The position numbers and the translations under genes were made by a program. A model generated the notes under the pieces. The model was not told where the DNA came from. It searched no databases and was given only the letters and a program-made list of their open reading frames with translations. DNA of 64,000 bases from Enchytraeus crypticus (taxonomy: Eukaryota; Annelida; Clitellata; Enchytraeida; Enchytraeidae). Below are positions 1,180-63,302 of this stretch, piece by piece. The stretch's first letter is position 1, and every line of letters begins with the position of its first letter. Location: assembly GCA_905160935.1 (NCBI GenBank), contig CAJHZI010000382.1:309501-373500 (forward strand), read 5' to 3'.

Positions 1180-3074
1180 TTATGAGTTGACAAACTTTAG
1201 GTTACTTTTTTCCCACTGTTCATATTCTGAGCAATGAAATCCTAAGTCACACTTCATTCTAAACGCACCTAATCTTTTATCCGTCTCCAGTTCTTCTGGA
1301 GATATAACATTATAAAGTGAATGAAATCTTACTATAGACACATCGTCATACTTTTTAATCCAATCCAATACTTCGTCTATACTCGCTCTAATCTTACTGT
1401 CTGAATTTAAATACTGCAGACTCGTGTTAGTCAGATCTGTCAGCTGAACGTCTGGGGATGCTGTTACGTTAACGAACAACACCGGAGACAGTGACGACAG
1501 CACCGAAGTTGGCACCAGTGGATTCAACAGAAAACTATTCTCACGATATATCTTTCGAAATTGTTCATCAAACGTTCGCAGTCTTGTGACAGAGAGTAAT
1601 GAGCAGCGGAACCTCGGATGACTGCATTGGGAGCTGCCATCACACGGGCAGCAGTGAAAGCGAGGTAGGATGAGGATCCTGTTGGATAGAGTTGACAGAG
1701 CCAGAGCCGTTTTCAAAGTCGTCAGTTCAAGGTTTGATATAGAAATGTTGTTGTAAGAATCGACGGGATTATCGTACGTGATGTACTTAGCCGAACTATT
1801 AGAATAGTACGCGCCTTCATCCACCGTCCATAGGAGGTTCTCCTTAAAGCGATATATCTTCGCAGCAACGCTGCCGAGGTAGTTGTTATGAACCATCACG
1901 CATTCCTCACACTGTGGAAGATTCTCGAACATTCTATGATGATGTTCGAAGTAGTAAACACCGCAAACGAACAGCCGTGTACTAAGAGAATGAATCTTAA
2001 GTGATGTCTTTCTTTCTAGCATCATCCTAATGGCCATGTTTAAGTAGGTTTGATCGTGGCCCAACTGGTACTTAGCGTAGAGATTCCAGGCTATTTTGTA
2101 GAGGTCACGAGCATGGTATGATGGTCGGATATATACAAATCCGCTGTTATACATCTGTCTATCTATCTGAAAATGAACGTCACAATCTGTACAATTCAAA
2201 TACGGAAATGGATCTTTGAAAATGATAACATCCGGATCTGACATCAGTACGGAGTATCCCAGGCTTAGAGCCTGAAGTGCTACAGCTGTTTTAGTATTTG
2301 TTTTCCTGTAATATCCTGCTGTTCCGAAGTCGCTCGCTTGATGGAAATTCGTATCTGGAACTTCTGATCTTTTCTTAAAGTTTACAAATTTATTGTCCAA
2401 TTCAGCATTTGCCGATTTGTCAGATGCTCGAGGTCGAACTATGGAAGAATCATCAAAAAATGCGCAACTTATTCCGATTTTGCTCAGTTTCGCTACAGCC
2501 TTCTGGGAAGTACATACGAGCAAAAAATTACTAATATTTAGCCTGTCGATTGAAAGTCTTTTAAAGTTGATTGCAAAATTGATATAGGCATAATCCACCA
2601 CACAGATGATAACTCGCTTAAATGGATCGGCAGCTCCTTCGAGAGAATTCGCGAAAGATCTACTTGTGGCTCCTTTAACTGCCTCAGCATCGCTTACCAG
2701 AAGCGTCGACACACTGGGTTTACTAGTCTGTGTTACAGCACCAAAGTTCTTGACGCCAAAACCAAAACCGGCTGCCTTTTCTCTCTCTTCGAGCGTCAAA
2801 ACTTTCTTCCCCGCTTTCCCTCCTTCTTTCATAACCCGCTCCGCCTGAAACCGTCGAACAGGATCATTGCCCTGCAACTTTCTCTCATCCTCAGAGAATT
2901 CTGGATTCAATTCCTCCAAGTCATCCTCTGAAAATTCCTTAGGCGAGAATGATCCAAATAAGAGTTGACTGATGCTTGATCTGTAGAAAGCGAACAGTGA
3001 GAAGAGAACGAGACTGAAGAAGAGGACAAATAGCGAGTGTCGATGTAGAAACCGAGATAATTGTTTACGTCCAG
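1180..3074 (-). CDS. Golgi type II nucleotide-diphospho-sugar transferase (GT77/PF03407-like), last exon
   Basis: The open frame has about 630 codons and ends in TAA at 1180-1182. Near its start is a basic stretch (RKQLSRFLHRHS), then a hydrophobic segment LFVLFFSLVLFSLFAFY, then an acidic lumenal stem: classic type II Golgi topology. The catalytic part carries a DxD-type motif in SDPDVIIFKDPF, followed by FQIDRQMYNSGFVYIRP, GHDQTYLNMAI and a late CEECVMVHNNYLG segment, as in the nucleotide-diphospho-sugar transferase family that includes plant xylosyl- and arabinosyltransferases. No in-frame ATG precedes the membrane segment. A pyrimidine-rich tract ending CTGCAG (minus strand, 3080-3075) looks like a 3' splice site, so translation probably begins in an upstream exon (position above 3300) that I could not find. 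Donor and acceptor sugars are unknown. The family call is firm, the substrate is not. Confidence 0.8.
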
Positions 3075-3125
3075 CTGCAGCAGAAAAATAACGAAGTACA
3101 ATATGTCCCTATTGTTTTGCTATCT

Positions 3126-3302
<177 letters not shown>

Positions 3303-3730
3303 ATGTTCACCTAAATGACAGTCCCTCCAGATACACGATCCTACTTAGAATTAGGTTCGGAGCTAACCAAGAAGCACTTTATCGACCAACAAGTAAATCC
3401 CATCACAAATGCTCTAATTATTACAATAAATCTCAGCTTATACGGCCGCTTAAAAAATATGACTTATTCATAACGAGTTGTTACGCGGCCTCGTATTGCC
3501 TTTCTCAGTAAACGTTTAGTAATAAATAGAAAGGGTTAAATGAGAATTGAGGAGAATTATCATTACCTCAGTATTATTACTATATTATTACTATATCTAA
3601 TTGATTTACGCACATTATAAATATAAAAATATCAAAATGCGCAAATCAATCTGATTTCCAATAATCCAACAACCACGCTATGCCAGTTGTGTTAGTAAGT
3701 TTTTAAAATAACTTTTTAAAACTTATTTGC

Positions 3731-3899: not shown

Positions 3900-5475
3900 A
3901 TTAATATTGATAACACCTCATAGTTCAATATAAAATGTCTAATTTCACCTATCTGTACATCGTAAAATACTTAATTAGTCATACTTTATAAATCAAATCA
4001 TACAAACTTCATGTCAACATATCAAATTTATACATATGTATCACACTGAAAATGCAATTAGCATCTAATTTACAGTTCCTATGTTTATCATATTTGTTTT
4101 TAAAAGCATTCACTGATTCTGCTTCTACAACTTCGCTTGGCAAACTATTCCAAGCATTTATAACTCTCTGACAAAAGAAAAATTTCCTTAAATCTAGTCT
4201 ATTTCTAAATTTACTAAGTTTATAAATATGTCCCCTAGTGTTTCTGTTGTTTGATAAATTAAACCAAATACTATGGTTAACTTTGCTGAAGCCTTTGAGT
4301 ATTTTAAAAACTTCTATTAAATCTCCTCTAGTTCTTCTCTCACTTAAAGAGGTTAATCCTACGAATTTTAATCTATTCTCATAACTAAGTTTTTGACAGT
4401 CAAATACCAGCCTTGTTGCTCCGGCTTGTACCCTTTCTAATTTATCGATATCTTTCTTAAGATATGGGCACCAAGCCTGAACGCAGTATTCAAGTTTGGG
4501 CCATACAAGAGCCTTATATAGCCTTACCACAGTATCTTTATTTCTACATGTGATTGTTCTTTTAATCATTCTTAATACACAATTAGCACTATTTACAATT
4601 TTATTACAATTTTCACTAAATTTAAAAGAGCTATCCACATAGACTCCTAAATCTCTCTCACTGTTTGTGGATTTTAATTTGATATTGTTCAAAGTATACT
4701 CAATTCCTAAATTATTATTCCCTATATGCATAACTCTACATTTCTCAGCATTGAACTCCATTAGCCAATCACTGGACCAGTTCTGTAATATTTTTATATC
4801 ATACTTCAAAATCTCAGCATCTTCAATGTTGTTTACTATCTTTGCCACTTTATAATCATCTGCAAATTTACTAAATTTTGATACAATATCTATGTCAATG
4901 TCATTGATGTAAACTAAAAATAACAGAGGTCCTAAAACAGAGCCTTGTGGCACACCACTCTTCACTGCTGCCCATTCCGAGAACTCGTCCTCGACACACG
5001 CCCTTTGTTTTCTATTGCTTAACCAATTACCTATCCACTTTAAAAGTTTGCCCGTTATTGCATGCGATTCCAACTTACTAAGTAATCTTTTATGTGGAAC
5101 TTTATCAAAAGCTTTAGCAAAGTCTAGATATAAGATATCAATGCTATTTTTATTATCTACTTCCCTTGTAATATATTCTTAAAAAATCTAGCAAATTAGT
5201 TAAACAAGAACGCCCACTAATGAAACCATGCTGACTATTTCTAATTAAATTATATTCTTCCAAGAAACTAATTATTTTATCCTTAATAATGCTTTCAAAA
5301 ATCTTACCGATTATGCTTGTTAAGCTAATAGGCCTATAATTTTCTGCTTTATCCCTATTCCCCTTTTTATGTATTGGAACTACATTGGCATTCTTAAAAT
5401 CTTGAGGAACCACCCCTATTTCCATTGATGCCTTTAGTAGTATTACACTGACATTATTCGCAAACTACTTATAAC
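3900..5475 (-). mobile_element. 5'-truncated CR1/jockey-like non-LTR retrotransposon (LINE)
   Basis: Minus-strand frames encode reverse transcriptase: VVPIHKKGNRDKAENYRPIS, SIIGKIFESIIKD, SQHGFISGRSCLTNLLDF, then LDFAKAFDKVPH, SGVPQGSVLGPLLF and the catalytic box SKFADDYKV. The C-terminal part (LEYCVQAWCPYLKKDIDKLE, FFCQRVINAWNSLP) ends at 4009. A single frameshift lies near 5160-5185, between the LLDF segment and the AFDKVPH segment; the rest is open. There is no endonuclease domain, so the copy is truncated at about 5460-5475. The small number of defects suggests a fairly recent insertion. Confidence 0.9.
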
Positions 5476-39078: not shown

Positions 39079-39471
39079 CTTGAGCTGTGCCACTTTTAGT
39101 TTAGATATCGTTGAGCTGTGCCACTTTTAATTTAGATATCGTTGAGCTGTGCCACTTTTAGTTTAGCTATCGTTGAGCTGCGCCAATTTTAGTTTAGCTA
39201 CCGTTGAGCTGTGCCACTTTTAGTTTAGATATCCTTGAGCTGTGCCATTTTTAGTTTAGCTATCGTTGAGCTGTGCCACTTTTAGTTTAGCTACCGTTGA
39301 GCTGTGCCACTTTTAGTTTAGCAATCCTTGAGCTGTGCCACTTTTAGTTTAACAATCCTTGAGCTGTGCCACTTTTAGTTTAGCTATCCTTGAGCTGTGC
39401 CACTTTTAGTTTAGATATCCTTGAGCTGTGCCACTTTTAGTTTAGCAATCCTTGAGATGTGCCACTTTTAA
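39079..39471. repeat. 31-bp minisatellite, about 13 copies
   Basis: The unit starts (C/G)TTGAGCTGTGCCACTTTT and ends AGTTTAG(A/C)(T/A)AT. It lies between the convergent 3' ends of the fibulin and AUH genes. Copies differ at a few positions (GATATC, GCTATC, GCAATC). Confidence 0.95.
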
Positions 39472-49711: not shown

Positions 49712-49989
49712 CCTATTAATGCCCAAAACGTTTCAGTACATTTTTCCAAGCTGTAGCTCATAAATTGGTCTCAAATAATCCAACTGATGATAAAAAATAT
49801 ACAAGAATCATTTTTCATTTTTAACCCTACAAATGGGGGCCTGTTCCCAAATGGGAACATTGGGCACATACGCAATTCAAAACAAAAGCATCACCTATAA
49901 AACTTTATTGCATGCAACGCATGCAATTATCGCTGTAATGTGCCTGTTGAATTTTGAAGACATGCAAATTACTCAATTCTTAACAAAGT

Positions 49990-55009: not shown

Positions 55010-58000
55010 ATGTCGTCATTACGAGGTCTTCAATACTTTCTTCTGCTGCACATTTGCCTTATCCTTCGTAAGTTGAATATCTTTACCTCTACGATATTTA
55101 TGAACAACGTCTATGATTACTTATATCTTACAAATAAATCACAACAGATAATAATTTTACATCGATTTAGTAATTTAGTAAAATAACTGCCAAAGTTCAC
55201 AGCAAATGACAACGTTGCTGTCTAATAGCTGTTTCCAGCAGGAGCGTCCGCCCTTCTCTCCCCCCCCCAGGCCACGACGCATGCATATTTCCCCCATCGA
55301 CTAACTCACTTTTTCCACTCTCCCTTTATTTTGTCAACGATGCAACTTGCGTCATTCTTGATATTTGTGGACGCTCCTGCTTTCCAGCATGTTAGTACTC
55401 CGTAGGTAATGCCTTTTCAGTCACTCTTAGACGGTCTAGTCGTTTTTAAAACGGGTCAGCATTTGCTGTCTTAATTAATAATTCATTCCATTGACATGTA
55501 AAGACATTGTACTGTAACTTTTTCATCTAGTGTCCTTGAGTTGCGACGAGCGCGTACACTTCTTCTTCCATTTTCTATCTTTAGTCCGGGCTCCTGCATT
55601 TTCCATTTTGTATCGTTTTTGTATCATTTTGTTAACGTCAGTTTCCTGACTCAATAGTGAGGTCCGTGTCGGGCGAGCCCAGGATTTGAACCCCGCACAT
55701 ACTGATCCGCGGTCGAATATCTTACCGACATCGCTAATCAGTCTGGCTTCCAGCTTCTATAGTTACAGTCAGCGTAGATCTTTTGTGGCCGTTTCGTGTA
55801 ATGCCTTGATATGCCATTTCCATAGTTACAATATAAATTTAAATTTTCTAAATCCATTTAGATCTCTAATTCAAGCCATAGATTTACATGGGTCTTAGCC
55901 GATTTTAACAAAACTGGAGTGACAAGTATCCTGTAGAGATAGGTAACACTAAAATTTATTGCTCTTCTGAATCTGCAGTTCTGATACCTATCAGAAATAT
56001 TTCTGTCTTATAGAACAGCCAGTGCAGTGCAGTCCTTTATTATTCCTCTCTGGAATTGGATTTAATTTGTTTTTGCGCAAATCAGTTCAGGTATAATCCG
56101 ACTACGATGTACACGTGCAGGTGTAGGCCCTGTATTGATTTATTTTGAGTCGACGAGTACTTGCGGGTTTTTCTACGATAGGAATTATTTTGATATCATT
56201 CAGATACGTCATCTTTGTCACTTGCCTTTTGAAAAGATATTTGTACACAAACTTGTCCAAGTAATTGTCGTAAATTGGATTACGTGTCGTTTTTAAACTT
56301 TTAAATTTCGTTGAGTGAACCTAATTGTATTTATGTTTCATTTCAGTACGTCTTCCTTCTTTCTATTCTCTCAGTTAACCGGTTACATGGTCCTGCTAAT
56401 AATTCATTTGCCATAAAATGCATTTTTCACTCATTTCACTGTTTAACTGCAGGCTCGTGGCAATATCTCCTCTACAAATTTTGTCCTCCGATTTCCTTCA
56501 CTTCTACATGCTTTATTAAATCGTTTTTTTTCAAACTTCCACATATGGCTTCTTTCAGCAAACCGAAGCACTACAACGTAGAACATGTTCTATCCAATCC
56601 TCTTCACATTTCTTAATACATATATCAGTTGTCTATCTGCACTGGCCGCTTGTATTTTTTCTACCACAGTTTTTAACTTTTTGGCTATAATAGCAAATCC
56701 TAACGCAATCCCTAAAACTAAAAAGTGACGCGTGAGGCAATCGAACCTAGGACGTCAGGATCTGAATCCTGACACCCTAGCGGAGAGAGACAACAATAGT
56801 CCAACTTTACACCAAGTGCTGTGTTTTAGCTTCTCCTCTTCCGTGTTCATTCCATCATCTCATTCCTCTGACTACTGACAAGCTGCTTTCAAGCTCCATA
56901 GAGAACGCTTTATAGATCAACAAAGTTTGTCTGGTATTCTCTCAGAAAAAGGCTCTTCTTTATCAATACTCCAATGTAGCCGTTACCTTAGAAAAGTATG
57001 GCTTTTGCGTTATGTCCGGGCCATTAATAAATATATCAATTTTAGACTGCATTTGTTGTTAGAAGCCAATAAGTAAAACTGAGGACGACAATGAAAAACC
57101 ACCACCTAATTTCTTAAGATGTTAAGACTTGTATAATTATGCATTTTCTTAGTGACAGTGGAAATATCAGCACAGATCAATCCGGACCAACCGATTCTTC
57201 TAAATGCTTCCAGTATCCGCATTTCTCCAAGTACGGTATCCTGGGATGGCTCCTCGTCCTGTAGTATTCAGTCAAACTGCCGGCTTGTAGATGGAGACTT
57301 AATGTCATCATGGACAATTCCTTCAGAGAACGTATCGATCGGCTTCTCGTTCACTAACGGATCTTTCACTGTGAGTCTCACAGCTGACTAGCATTTATGA
57401 CTAGTATTTATAACTAGCATTCTATGACTAGCATTTCTCTCTCTTAGTGCACTGCCTACTGGCAGGTCCATGGTATATAACGCCTCTACTTTTCTCTGTC
57501 TTCCGCCTTCCTCTTCATTTCCACATATGAGTGGGTCTTTATATCATCAAACTCATATGTGGAAATGAAGAGGAAGACAGAGAAGAGTGGAGGCGTTATG
57601 TACCATGGACTAACATTTACTAAATATTTATGACTAGCATTTTATGATTAGTATTTCTTGCATTTATTTATTAGTAGATTATTATTCTGCAGTCTGCGAT
57701 GTCTGGAACAGCTTCAGCTATTTTAAATATTTGTGAATCTGAAAGAATTGCTGCATGCAAAAAGGTATCTATGTGCCAAGATGTATTTCTGAGTAAAAAT
57801 TCCTAAAACATGTCATATGGAAAGATTAATATGCAATCATGCAGATATTACTATAACGGTGTGATCTGCGAAGATCTTTGGCAATAATTGATGGGCGGCA
57901 ATACAGTATTCTATACGGCATTGCTGTGCTATTTCTAGTTTTCATTAATACATTTTATTATTTTACAGGGATTTCTATTTAGGACAGTCTATAGATAATG

Positions 58001-61000
58001 CTTCATTGATTCTTGCACGTTCGGAGAAGCCCTATGATACAGAATAATCAAACTCTAATCCTCTCTGCTCGACTTGAGTTCAAACGCACACACATGTAGG
58101 CATACTCAAAGACACATACTCAAAATTACGCATACACACACATGCACCCACGCATACACACACAAACACTTGCATCCACACACACGCATCTGCACTTGGA
58201 GGCTCATGCTAAATTAACTTTATGTATCAAAAAATAGAGCCTACTAATAAAGCTAACATAATAGATACGGACGAGTAAAGAACAAATTAGTACATAGAAA
58301 TATGCTTAATTGCTTATGTTGTGACATGTCTATTATAAAAGCAGACGTGTTAACAATTCCGTTTAAGCGTGCCCATCACAAAAAAAGCTACGAATTGCGC
58401 ATAACTTTGGAAGAATTTTCGACTCTTCCCGTTAGTAATATAAGAATGTAAAAATGCAAAGACCTATGCAGCAATAGATATGATATGATACAGCAACATC
58501 GCCATAATGACGGAAATGTAACGAGTTTATTGTTATACAGATTAGCCGAGTGCGACTACACCACAACGTTAGTGACACTTCTGGACTGCATGTCGTGGTA
58601 ACACTGACAGGAAGTAGATGGATGTGGCGAACTACGTTTACTCCCAACTGTCAAGACGTTGCACAAGTACTAAGTAATGATGGAGAGTTCTACAATTGCA
58701 TTGAGTAAGTTTAAATGTAATGATGGAGAGTTCTACAATTTCATAGAGTAAGTTTAAATGTAATGATGGAGAGTTCTACAATTTCATTGAGTAAGTTTAA
58801 ATGTAATGATGGAGAGTTCTACAATTTCATTGAGTAAGTTTAAATGTAATGATGGAGAGTTCTACAATTTCATTGAGTAAGTTTAAATGTAATGATGGAG
58901 AGTTCTACAATTGCATTGAGTAAGTTTAAATGTAATGATGGAGAGTTCTACAATTTCATTAAGTTTAGTAATGATTTCTACAATGAGTAAGTGTAATGAT
59001 GGAGAGTTCTACAATTTCATTGAGTAAGTTTAAATGTAATGATGGAGAGTTCTACAATTTCATTGAGTAAGTTTAAATGTAATGATGGAGAGTTCTACAA
59101 TTTCATTGAGTAAGTTTAAATGTAATGATGGAGAGTTCTACAATTTCATTGAGTAAGTTTAAATGTAATGATGGAGAGTACTTCAATTGTTTTGCATAAG
59201 TTTAAATGTAATAATGAAAAGTTCTGCAATAGTGTTGAGTAAGTTTAAATAGAATTTCTATTATCCAGTATTTCCTTCTTTAATCTTTTCTGGCCTTCGT
59301 GTTAAATTGATTAACCCTAAGGAAATCATTACGTTCAAAACTATTATCTTGTAATTTGGAGCGATAGCTTCTATATTATATGTAGCTGAAAGTAGTTCTT
59401 AATTAAGATATTTCTGCTTTGCTTAAGCAATCAGAAACTAAACGTAACTCCACATCAATACGCGATAAATATTACACGAACTCTGTATGAACTCTGTATG
59501 AACTCTGTATGAACTCTGTATATTCTATAAGATAACTACTAGCCGTCAATGTGTACATCAGACTACTGTGGTGACTAATACATTTCTACTTGCCGCACTA
59601 TCACTGTCATCTTATTTAAGAGTGAAGCCAAGATGAAATAGGTCCCACACAGTATCATAAAAAGCTAATCTTAACGTCAGTTTCCTCACTCGAAGGCGAT
59701 GTCAGTGACGGACGAGCCCATGATTTGAACCCCGCGCATACTGATCCGCGGTCGAGTAACTTGCCGACATCGCAACTGGCTCCAGCCATGTCATAGAGAA
59801 TGACCTTCCTTGAACACTAGAAAATAAATCTTATCTGCATAATGAAACACAAGCATCAGAGAACTGCATGATGGGCTGGAAAATTTACAGGTGTATTGGG
59901 ATGTGATACTAATTTCAGAGCATCCAGGTGTAGGTCTGTCACTTGGAAAGATGTCAGTAGTGCGAACAAAGTTGATTTGTCTGCTTTCACAATTGTTTGT
60001 CGTTGTTTGACGACTTTTTAAATGAACATATCTACTACAAAGATATAAGTTAGTAGACAATAGAAAGGCCAAGCCCATTATATTGGCCTATTTCATTGCT
60101 CGTCTTTTTTGTTGCTTATGCAAAGTATCTGCTTTAAAGTAATCATGTACTCAAAATATATTGATTCTGCTGAGAATATATTATCTTGCCATAATGATAA
60201 TTTTATATGCTTAAGACAACTCAGTGGAATACAATACACTATAAGGACATTGTGCTTAAGTTAAGGTTTTACACTCGAATGCGCTTTTAGTGACGAATAC
60301 TGCATCTATAAAATCAAAAGAAATTATTTTGCACTACTTTAAACAAACCTGTTATAAAGTTACTTTATGTTTGTGACAGATTCTTAACGTTAGAAAATCC
60401 TGGTATATTCGAGATTCAGCAATCCGAGCAGTTCTCGATTCGAGACGCAAACGGTTCGTTCATTTGGTGGGAGGGCTTTCAAAGAATTGATCTAGAGTTC
60501 GTACATATCGATGGGTCGCAAAATGTTACAAGCAATATTTCAATTAAAGAACTGGAAGTTTTCGGCTGGTTTGTAATTTTCCTTTCTCAAAAGTATATTT
60601 ATGTTATGTTTTTAAATAACTAGCCTCTAATATTTTTACTATGTAATTATTCAATAATTATCGTGACGAAATTTACGGTGAGACTCTCTGCTTTGGTGTT
60701 TAGTTTATGCTGATAATAGAATATGGGCTATTTATTAACTAAAGTTACTTCTATGGCCATTTTATTTTCCAATAAATGGATAAATATTATATGACAGTAA
60801 CGCATTGCTAAAAAATTTGAATAAATACTATTTCATACAGTTTTGACCATCAAATAGGCTCTTTTATGGTATCCTCTTTCGTATTGCTGTTTGTTTGTCT
60901 GACTACATGCGCGTTCCTATTGTTTGTATAATCTGTGCTGTGATGAACAAATAAACGATACTAAATACTAAAAAATACTATAAAAATACTAGGCCTATAG

Positions 61001-63302
61001 CTGATCTACTTTCGTGAATATATTTTAAGTGTTCAAGATTTATTTCTTAACTTGAGATTTGCATTATTATGTCATTAGTTACGCATATTTATTGTAATTA
61101 CCTTAGTAAGTTCCATTTGGTAGATTTCTTATGCTACTTAATGAGCAACATAGATTTTACCACATGACCTGTACATGTATATTGTTGTATTTACATGTAT
61201 ATTGTACATGTATTATGTATAGGAAGGAACCGACATCTGCCTGCAACTGTCATCCACTTGGATTGCTTATCCCGGAGAATCCCTGCGATGAATTGGGCCA
61301 CTGTGTATGCAATCTACTGGACAGTCCAGACCCACGCTGCGTATGTATGCGCTTAATATTTTAGTAAATCTAAGTATCACTGTGGCACTACAAAACTTTG
61401 AAAAATATCCATTTTTCTCAAGTTGTATTACACTAATTAACTAGTATGTAGCCGTGCAAATGAATACGTTATGAAAAGAAAAACTCGCGTCCACTTCGAT
61501 TACGGTGTTTCATTTTTTGCATTAGTTTGCCGCTTTGTTTATTTTCGGATAAAGTTTGTGTGTATCCCTGGTGATCCTTTGTTGTATAGCTGATAACGTT
61601 TGTTTGTGTTACTGATAGAGCTTGTTTTTATCATTGGTAACGCTTATGTGTATTACTGATAACCCTTGTTTGAGTCTGACGTCCCCGATATCATTCTTGA
61701 ATGAGGAAACGGACGTTAAACCTTTATTATTATTGTTACTGATAACGCTTTTTGTATCACTGGTAACGTTTGCTTATATTTCTGATAATTCTTGTTTGTA
61801 TCACTTATAATGCGTGTTTGTATCATTGACAGTTCTTGTTTGTAACGCTGATAAGAATTTTTGTCGCTCTTCTATAGACCTTTTATAATATGTAGCGGTA
61901 ACTCTGTTCACATAATAAAGAAAGCCTAATGGTGGAGTGGGAAGGGGAGTGTGCTTATATTTCCGGCTGGCAATATTCTATATATTCCCATGTATTTATT
62001 ATGTTTTTCATCATTTATTAACAGAATGGTATTTTAAAAATTACAAAAAAATTATATTTTCATTACTTATCAAATGATGATAAACATGTCTTATTTACAT
62101 TTAATTTATGTCTATATTGATTATATAGAGAGGATATATTACATTTTTACGATAAATTACGTTGCAGTTGCCTGCCAAAAGCAACTAAGTTTATGATTGT
62201 ACGGTGGCGCCTCCTAGCGAAAGAAAAAATATAATTTGAGATTTTTCAAAGTAAACACTTTTTATGTAACTAAGGTCTATATATTCACAGGTTCCATCGA
62301 TTAATTCTCTCATTCCGTATGGACCGATAGATGGTGGCACTGAACTGATGCTGATAAGTAACGTGAACAGTTCATCACAAGTCACTGTCACTGTAGGTGA
62401 CAGCTACAACTGCGCAGTACTCAGTGGAAAATATACAGCAAAAGAGTAAGATTATGATTGCGTTCAGGATTATGAATAGTACTAACGCTTAGAATATGAT
62501 AAGATTGTAATTTGATACATCTATGAACATAATCATTCGAATATTAGTATACTGTAGTATATATTGTAGTTGTGGTCATAAGAATAAGTGAATATGATTA
62601 TTACTATAATACGTTATTATAATTATCAGTAAGATTGACGAAAATGATTACGAGCACTTTAACTTTAAGATGTAGTTATATCTTTACATTAAAGCCAATT
62701 TTGAACTATACATGTAATATGGGACATTGCTTGTAATTTCTGTTAGCATGTGTGGTGAATTCATTTAAGTTCAGGTCTGCTTCTAACATCATCATTGGCA
62801 GCCTGAACAACCCTTAAAATCCATCGACTGTCTCACTAGTATACACTAGTATAATGTAACAACGGCTAGACTATTCTACAGAAATAGAAAAGGAGCAAAA
62901 TATGTCATTAACAGCTCAACACTGAATGTAAAGTTTTCTTGCTGTAGCTTATTCTTATCAAATTCATTGAAATAAAATTATCTTTCTAATCTAGGATATC
63001 AGCTAAATTAATTTCTGAAGATTCATGTGATTAATTTGACATGTGCATAGTGGGCCTACTTTCTGATTTTCACATAGAGTTTATGGTATCTCTGTGAACT
63101 TAATTTATTGTTACAGCTCCTATAAGCAGCTGATGTTTTGCAATACGTCCAAAGCAACTGATCAGCTGCTCAAATCTCTGCCTATAAAAGTCTGCTGGCC
63201 GGTCAGCAGCTATGGTGATGTGTGCAGACAGCTGTCTGAAAGATTTCAATACAGACCAACTCCTGTCATCTCAAAAATTCACCCGCTAACCACAATCTCG
63301 AG
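55010..63302 (+). CDS. Secreted or type I membrane protein with laminin-EGF and IPT/TIG domains (partial, runs off the window)
   Basis: Seven exons join in phase: 55010-55067, 57153-57370, 58541-58704, 60380-60568, 61223-61340, 62291-62445, 63117-63302, about 362 codons so far. Exon 1 is a signal peptide (MSSLRGLQYFLLLHICLIL). Exons 2-4 form a region of about 190 aa ending SIKELEVFGW, resembling a galactose-binding or laminin-N-terminal beta sandwich but not identified with certainty. Exon 5 is one laminin-type EGF module (SACNCHPLGLLIPENPC, LGHCVCNLLD). Exons 6-7 hold an IPT/TIG domain opening VPSINSLIPYGPIDGGTEL, and a second begins PVISKIHPLTTIS. Tandem IPT domains occur in plexins, MET-type receptors and related proteins; an N-terminal domain plus LE plus IPT fits none exactly. 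The exon 7 donor (phase 2) shows the gene continues. The exon 3 donor lies at the start of a 43-bp tandem array. Confidence 0.85.
55239..55379. mobile_element. hAT-like MITE, 141 bp
   Basis: Terminal inverted repeats CAGGAGCGTCC and GGACGCTCCTG are perfect over 11 bp. They are flanked by the 8-bp duplication GTTTCCAG (55231-55238) and CTTTCCAG (55380-55387), 7 of 8 identical. No coding capacity. It lies in intron 1 of the IPT gene. Confidence 0.85.
55628..55753 (-). repeat. SINE-1 copy
   Basis: Minus-strand copy: GTTAACGTCAGTTTCCTGAC, CAGGATTTGAACCCCGC, TATCTTACCGACATCGC. Confidence 0.85.
56437..56700 (-). mobile_element. Decayed LINE-B copy
   Basis: GAACATGTTCTATCCAATCC, ATATCAGTTGTCTATCTGC matches 19580-19645, with many changes. 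The 3' end near 56440 is barely recognisable. Confidence 0.5.
56870..57010. repeat. Repeat family D copy
   Basis: TACTGACAAGCTGCTTTCAAG, CTCCATAGAGAACGC, AGATCAACAAAG and AAAAGTATGGCTTTTGCG resemble 20950-21120. It ends about 140 bp before exon 2 of the IPT gene. Confidence 0.45.
57388..57655. mobile_element. Two LINE-B ends as an inverted pair inside a short tandem repeat
   Basis: The LINE-B end 57437-57521 (minus) is followed by the same segment in the opposite direction, 57549-57612 (plus), forming a hairpin with arms of about 62 bp; shared words include CATTTCCACATATGAGT and GTCCATGGTA. Units of TATGACTAGCATTT flank the pair on both sides (57388-57436 and 57613-57655). Confidence 0.75.
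58085..58200. repeat. (CA)n-rich tract
   Basis: Imperfect ACACAC/ACGCAT repeats in intron 2 of the IPT gene. Confidence 0.8.
58674..59253 (+). repeat. 43-bp tandem array copying an exon end plus its splice donor
   Basis: About 13 copies, plus one degenerate copy near 58963-58992, of a unit that starts TAATGATGGAGAGTTCTACA and ends TTTAAATG with GAGTAAGT inside. The first copy is the last 31 nt of exon 3 (to 58704) and its donor. Twelve copies keep a GAGTAAGT donor. In the exon frame each donor reads GAG TAA, so any site except the first leaves a stop in the mRNA. Confidence 0.95.
59656..59788 (-). repeat. SINE-1 copy
   Basis: Minus-strand copy: ATAAAAAGCTAATCTTAACG, GGCGATGTCAGTGACGG, ATGATTTGAACCCCGCG, ACATCGCAACTGGCTCCAG. 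Confidence 0.87.
61670..61735 (+). mobile_element. LINE-A terminal fragment
   Basis: GAGTCTGACGTCCCCGATATC, ATTCTTGAATGAGGAAACGG, ACGTTAAACCTTTATTATT. Confidence 0.65.

Follow-up and report, generated by a model that had tools for sequence, protein, structure and literature searches.

A minisatellite has multiplied the 5' splice site of one exon in a putative receptor tyrosine kinase gene of Enchytraeus crypticus. In the 64,000-nucleotide stretch of DNA that was analysed (the window), a 43-bp tandem unit at positions 58674-59250 spans an exon-intron boundary, with 31 nt of exonic and 12 nt of intronic sequence in each unit, and twelve GTAAGT donors lie within the array. A single donor, the first, keeps the reading frame into the next exon, and the same arrangement is present in seven other recognisable genes of this genome. 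The array is probably a tolerated, mostly neutral minisatellite, of the type named "mirage" in lancelets, in which the first donor wins through exon definition.

The earlier note on this DNA had described a unit made up of 31 nt from the end of exon 3 and 12 nt from the start of its intron, repeated about 13 times with twelve donors kept, and both counts stand. There are 13 unit starts (58674, 58717, 58760, 58803, 58846, 58889, 58932, 58993, 59036, 59079, 59122, 59165, and 59208) as well as a 25-nt fragment, and GTAAGT occurs at 58705, 58748, 58791, 58834, 58877, 58920, 58987, 59024, 59067, 59110, 59153, and 59239.

58674..59250, + strand: 43-bp minisatellite array, 13 unit starts (one broken) and one 25-nt truncated unit
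58674-58704 and 58705-58716, + strand: exon portion (31 nt) and intron portion (12 nt) of unit 1
58932-58967, + strand: broken unit of 36 nt, donor lost, followed by the truncated unit
58968-58992, + strand: truncated unit of 25 nt, donor at 58987 retained
59165..59250, + strand: two diverged units at the 3' edge, with 7 and 8 substitutions; the first has ATAAGT and the second GTAAGT

Tandem Repeats Finder reported two arrays of period 43, at 58674-58964 (6.8 copies, 97% matches) and at 58988-59250 (6.1 copies, 92% matches), which are separated by a disrupted stretch, and nested periods of 190-276 bp were also reported. The 12 in-register units differ by 18 substitutions, 15 of them in the last two units, one of which (the unit at 59165) has lost the donor by substitution of its first base. 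Homogenised arrays whose edges are old usually look like this, and a homogenised core with diverged edge units is likewise found in mirage minisatellites. Column 25 is T in 8 of the 12 in-register units and G in unit 1, where it is the middle base of a Cys codon. By a post hoc count, one of the 18 substitutions lies in the intronic part of the unit (12 bases), which is below its share by length. Selection on the donor hexamer itself, which also holds one of the 18, was considered and dropped, the numbers being too small for such a claim. When the genome was searched with 58600-59300, this locus alone was matched, in a search that leaves out simple repeats and words of very high frequency.

Other repeats were seen in the neighbourhood. 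Another minisatellite at 39079-39470 has a 31-bp unit (12.6 copies, 92% matches), and a further one, in the downstream part of the same receptor gene (2510-3421 of stretch L004), has a 25-bp unit in 36.5 copies; both are without GTRAGT words. Copies of a dispersed repeat, alike in their translated reading, lie at window positions 49984, 55650, and 59626 and near position 4883 of stretch L005 (78883 from the window start), and look like a SINE-type element.

The exon that carries the array was placed in a five-exon model, in which all joins are open, phases are consistent, and borders are AG/GT.

57153..57370, + strand: exon 2 of the model, open frame with AG/GT borders, ending in phase 0 and followed by GTGAGT
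58541..58704, + strand: exon 3 (164 nt), open frame, acceptor tatacag, ending in phase 2 at the first donor
58705..58710, + strand: first donor GTAAGT, the sole frame-keeping one when joined to exon 4
58748..59244, + strand: eleven later GTAAGT donors, each giving a stop when joined to exon 4
60380..60568, + strand: exon 4, protein open from exon 3 via the first donor only
61223..61340, + strand: exon 5, open frame, cysteine-rich, laminin-EGF-like by eye, without a Pfam match
62291..62445, + strand: exon 6, IPT/TIG-like (Pfam E 0.0014, 19.0 bits, below the cut-off of 20.9 bits)

Downstream DNA contains tyrosine kinase exons carrying HRD and DFG motifs, in separate exons. Joined by eye, these match Pfam PK_Tyr_Ser-Thr (E 1.6e-78), and among PDB entries they match HGF receptor chains from E 1.8e-73 (250.4 bits), which are outscored by chain 9p9u_A, named EGF receptor (261.8 bits). 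The kinase part matched 1146 proteins in the protein database. Among the best 120 of these 1146, the named ones are HGF/MSP receptors or proteins of unnamed function, and the named HGF/MSP receptors are 46-56% identical to the kinase, the top match (46%) being from a mite. None of these best 120, a length-filtered set in which many entries are nameless, exceeded 56% identity, and none was named as Branchiostoma. Called an IPT-receptor gene in the earlier note, the gene is better described as a receptor tyrosine kinase of MET/RON-like type, the single IPT/TIG match falling just short of the cut-off. The 280-aa N-terminal model, which starts at exon 2, gave no Pfam match to a SEMA domain. No homologue of the extracellular region or of exons 3-4 was found at E <= 1 in the protein database (a word-based, length-limited search), nothing convincing was found for the extracellular region in the PDB (best E 0.03), and a search of this genome for paralogues of exons 3-4 matched only the locus itself. 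Because no homologue of that region was found, the exon 3-4 junction is defined by reading frame and splice borders alone. Exons of a neighbouring gene, read by eye as an SFSWAP/SURP-type splicing regulator, lie about 80.5-93 kb from the window start (L005-L006).

The genome was also searched for three AGGTAAGT words with gaps of 15-45 nt, with the reversed word as control. This pattern gave 361 matches versus 441 for the control, indicating that arrays are common as such and not special to donors; no genome-wide excess of donor-bearing arrays was found by these counts. Single AGGTAAGT sites numbered 14,001 versus 27,462 for the control, and matches in arrays amounted to 2.6% versus 1.6% per single site, with the matches within an array not being independent. 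At least 28 arrays were present among the matches listed, of which two (C105 and C185) were omitted as low-complexity and 26 were examined. In seven, exons were found on both sides of the junction together with a Pfam match that exceeds the cut-off, and one (L042) adjoins an EGF exon recognised by Pfam at its first donor. Two more have weak matches below the cut-off (L049 and L053), three have a long open frame only (L045, L056, and L063), and 13 have no callable exon (including L061, which is masked upstream). The seven are:

L040: C2 (synaptotagmin), Pfam; aligns to a PDB chain with no gap at the junction
L047: Kelch, Pfam match runs across the junction
L062: UCH (USP), Pfam match runs across the junction
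L057: DOCK_N (DOCK), Pfam; aligns to a PDB chain with no gap at the junction
L059: WAP, Pfam; the better of two stretches lies beyond the junction
L051: EGF (reelin- or teneurin-like), Pfam match runs across the junction
L044: HR1 of the TOCA family (HR1_TOCA), Pfam match runs across the junction

In six of these seven joined genes (C2, Kelch, UCH, DOCK_N, EGF, and HR1_TOCA) the best Pfam match crosses the junction. Gene names beyond the Pfam families were assigned by eye, except for synaptotagmin and DOCK, which come from the PDB alignments. At least 50 open codons precede the first donor in 13 of the 26 arrays, versus 22.7% of random GT at the same loci, with first-donor positions set by eye in L040, L042, L044, and L057. 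With automatic choice of the first donor and the N run of L061 left out, the figure is 10 of 26, which is marginal (binomial 0.05). The acceptor-like word TTTTCAGG gave 38 array matches versus 23 for its control (e.g., G000:C370:1474866-1474931), and these are possible mirages of the 3' boundary. The synaptotagmin locus (L040, G000:C54:314800-320100) has two homologous C2B exons in tandem, at about 1010-1180 and 2208-2376, which resemble mutually exclusive exons; a donor array was seen at the second only.

When donors 2-12 of the window gene were joined to exon 4, all 11 joins put a stop codon within the inserted sequence, as had been claimed from the first inspection. Across the window gene and its seven siblings, the first donor alone yields protein, and later donors lead to a stop in 55 of 56 cases and to a frameshift in the remaining one. 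Read in the other two frames, the inserts of the eight genes hold a stop in 98 of 112 readings, and stops after later donors are therefore largely what intron sequence gives by itself; we make no claim of special enrichment in the true frame. Nor does strength explain the choice of the first donor, since later donors mostly equal or exceed it in predicted pairing with U1. In the window gene, nine of donors 2-12 equal the first and two are stronger (-6.7 and -7.5 versus -5.6 kcal/mol), and across the eight genes 44 of 56 pair as well or better. All of the window's donors are weak compared with the first donors of the seven siblings, which range from -11.6 to -14.2 kcal/mol.

We propose that the minisatellite arose when a 43-bp segment lying across the exon 3 donor boundary was duplicated in tandem again and again. 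As a matter of geometry, duplicating such a junction always keeps copy 1 on the complete exon and places the extra copies in the intron, so that the array is harmless provided that splicing uses the first donor. We infer that it is the donor used in RNA, because exon 3 would be recognised as a unit (exon definition) and the donor nearest to its own acceptor would beat downstream donors of equal or greater strength. Intron lengths in the eight genes run from 465 to 1966 nt, which we take as fitting exon definition. Any leakage to later donors would produce transcripts with a stop, presumably at a low level, and such leakage is plausible given that exon 3 would measure 207 nt with the second donor and 250 nt with the third, both normal exon sizes. 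The earlier note had offered two outcomes, constant use of the first of a dozen identical sites or alternative use that tunes expression. The former is the better supported, by the seven sibling genes and by the minigene results described in PMC9225289.

Tuning of expression by poison donors would have some transcripts use later donors, carry a stop, and be degraded, with receptor output falling as copy number rises. The stop after every later donor would serve this end, as would the fact that all eleven in the window pair with U1 at least as well as the first, and boundary repeats in human segmental duplications are reported to lead to alternative splicing (PMC2812944). We nevertheless consider it unlikely, since the stops are not peculiar to the true frame, lancelet RT-PCR suggested regular splicing (PMC3087553), and the presence of the same arrangement in unrelated genes speaks against a gene-specific design.

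If the gene were dead, or if no exon adjoined the array, splicing would be irrelevant. The extracellular part has no homologue in those searches, its 280-aa N-terminal part is without a Pfam match, and the glycine-rich loop of the kinase appears unusual by eye. Against this, five exons join open with consensus borders, the kinase catalytic motifs are intact across separate exons, and the recognised sibling arrays adjoin conserved exons. The HRD and DFG motifs, together with the HGF-receptor and Pfam kinase matches, make the gene look intact, and we regard its decay as very improbable.

An artefact in which the assembly has the copy number wrong could draw on the single assembly used as source, on the nested periods, which could be misjoined, and on a similar array that was aberrantly assembled in a lancelet draft (PMC3087553). 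Differences between the units are patterned (unit-specific substitutions, an internal truncation, and diverged edges), however, and the arrangement recurs at seven other loci, built there from other units. An assembly error would moreover alter the copy number and not the existence of the array, and we give this explanation hardly any weight. It is just as improbable that the repeated donors are intronic U1 binding platforms, acting for example against early polyadenylation or to enhance exon definition; the low substitution count of the intronic bases would suit such platforms, but it is post hoc, and conservation says little where copies are homogenised.

Seemingly live, conserved genes with 5 to 12 similar donors in an array offer an in vivo gauge of how far exon definition can select the first among equal 5' sites. 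The experiments cited here used duplicated sites, and the eight genes, with others likely in the genome, make up a replicated natural test. They also allow one to ask whether a change in copy number alters expression or seeds new introns. A bolder reading, which we hold to be doubtful, is that tandem 5' splice site amplification is genome-wide in this animal; dozens of genes would then have length-variable arrays of working donors, whose copy number would determine a heritable but low frequency of splicing that brings in a stop, and would feed intron evolution, with the arrays normally hidden by exon definition.

The donor array is not singular, as mirages are known in lancelets and other arrays exist in this genome. 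It is a known kind of array, and its added interest comes from the copy number and from the siblings within the same genome. No genome-wide account of donor arrays was found in the literature searched, which covered few subscription journals. Lancelet mirages are described as length-unstable tandem repeats across exon borders, with copy numbers that differ among haplotypes or within the body, in genes for Adh3, the globins BflGb6 and BflGb9, troponin C, and PGBD5 (PMC3087553, PMC3902484), and RT-PCR suggested that regular splicing is undisturbed (PMC3087553). As in those accounts, the units here span an exon-intron boundary, many copies carry splice signals with one on the full exon, and the core is homogenised while the edges have diverged. 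The mirage units reported are of 150-160 bp in BflGb6, 157 bp in BflGb9, and 10-72 bp in Adh3 (PMC3087553) as against 43 bp here, and the twelve donors in a single array are a further difference from the mirages so described. Human segmental duplications also have repeats at exon-intron boundaries that alter splicing, with transcript support (PMC2812944). These too are minisatellite units, of about 30 bp on average, but they were compared between recent paralogues with transcripts, whereas here there is one array per gene, viewed at the DNA level alone.

Experiments on competing donors also resemble the choice that exon 3 would pose. In exon-defined minigenes in human cells that carried the same CAG/guaagu site twice, 52 nt apart, the upstream site was used exclusively; in minigenes of the same type with both sites weakened, larger exons were skipped (PMC9225289). 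The same source reports that intron-defined cases favour the downstream 5' site, and that about 60% of human events showed a preference for the downstream site when all were counted, ahead of any filter for equally strong sites. In C. elegans, where a pair of 5' sites had been duplicated, both pairs were used, mostly the upstream one (PMC8865678). The exons of PMC9225289 resemble exon 3 in having identical donors about 50 nt apart and one upstream acceptor, an arrangement in which exon definition should favour the upstream donor. They differ in having two engineered strong sites in human cells, compared with the twelve natural, weaker donors of this array.
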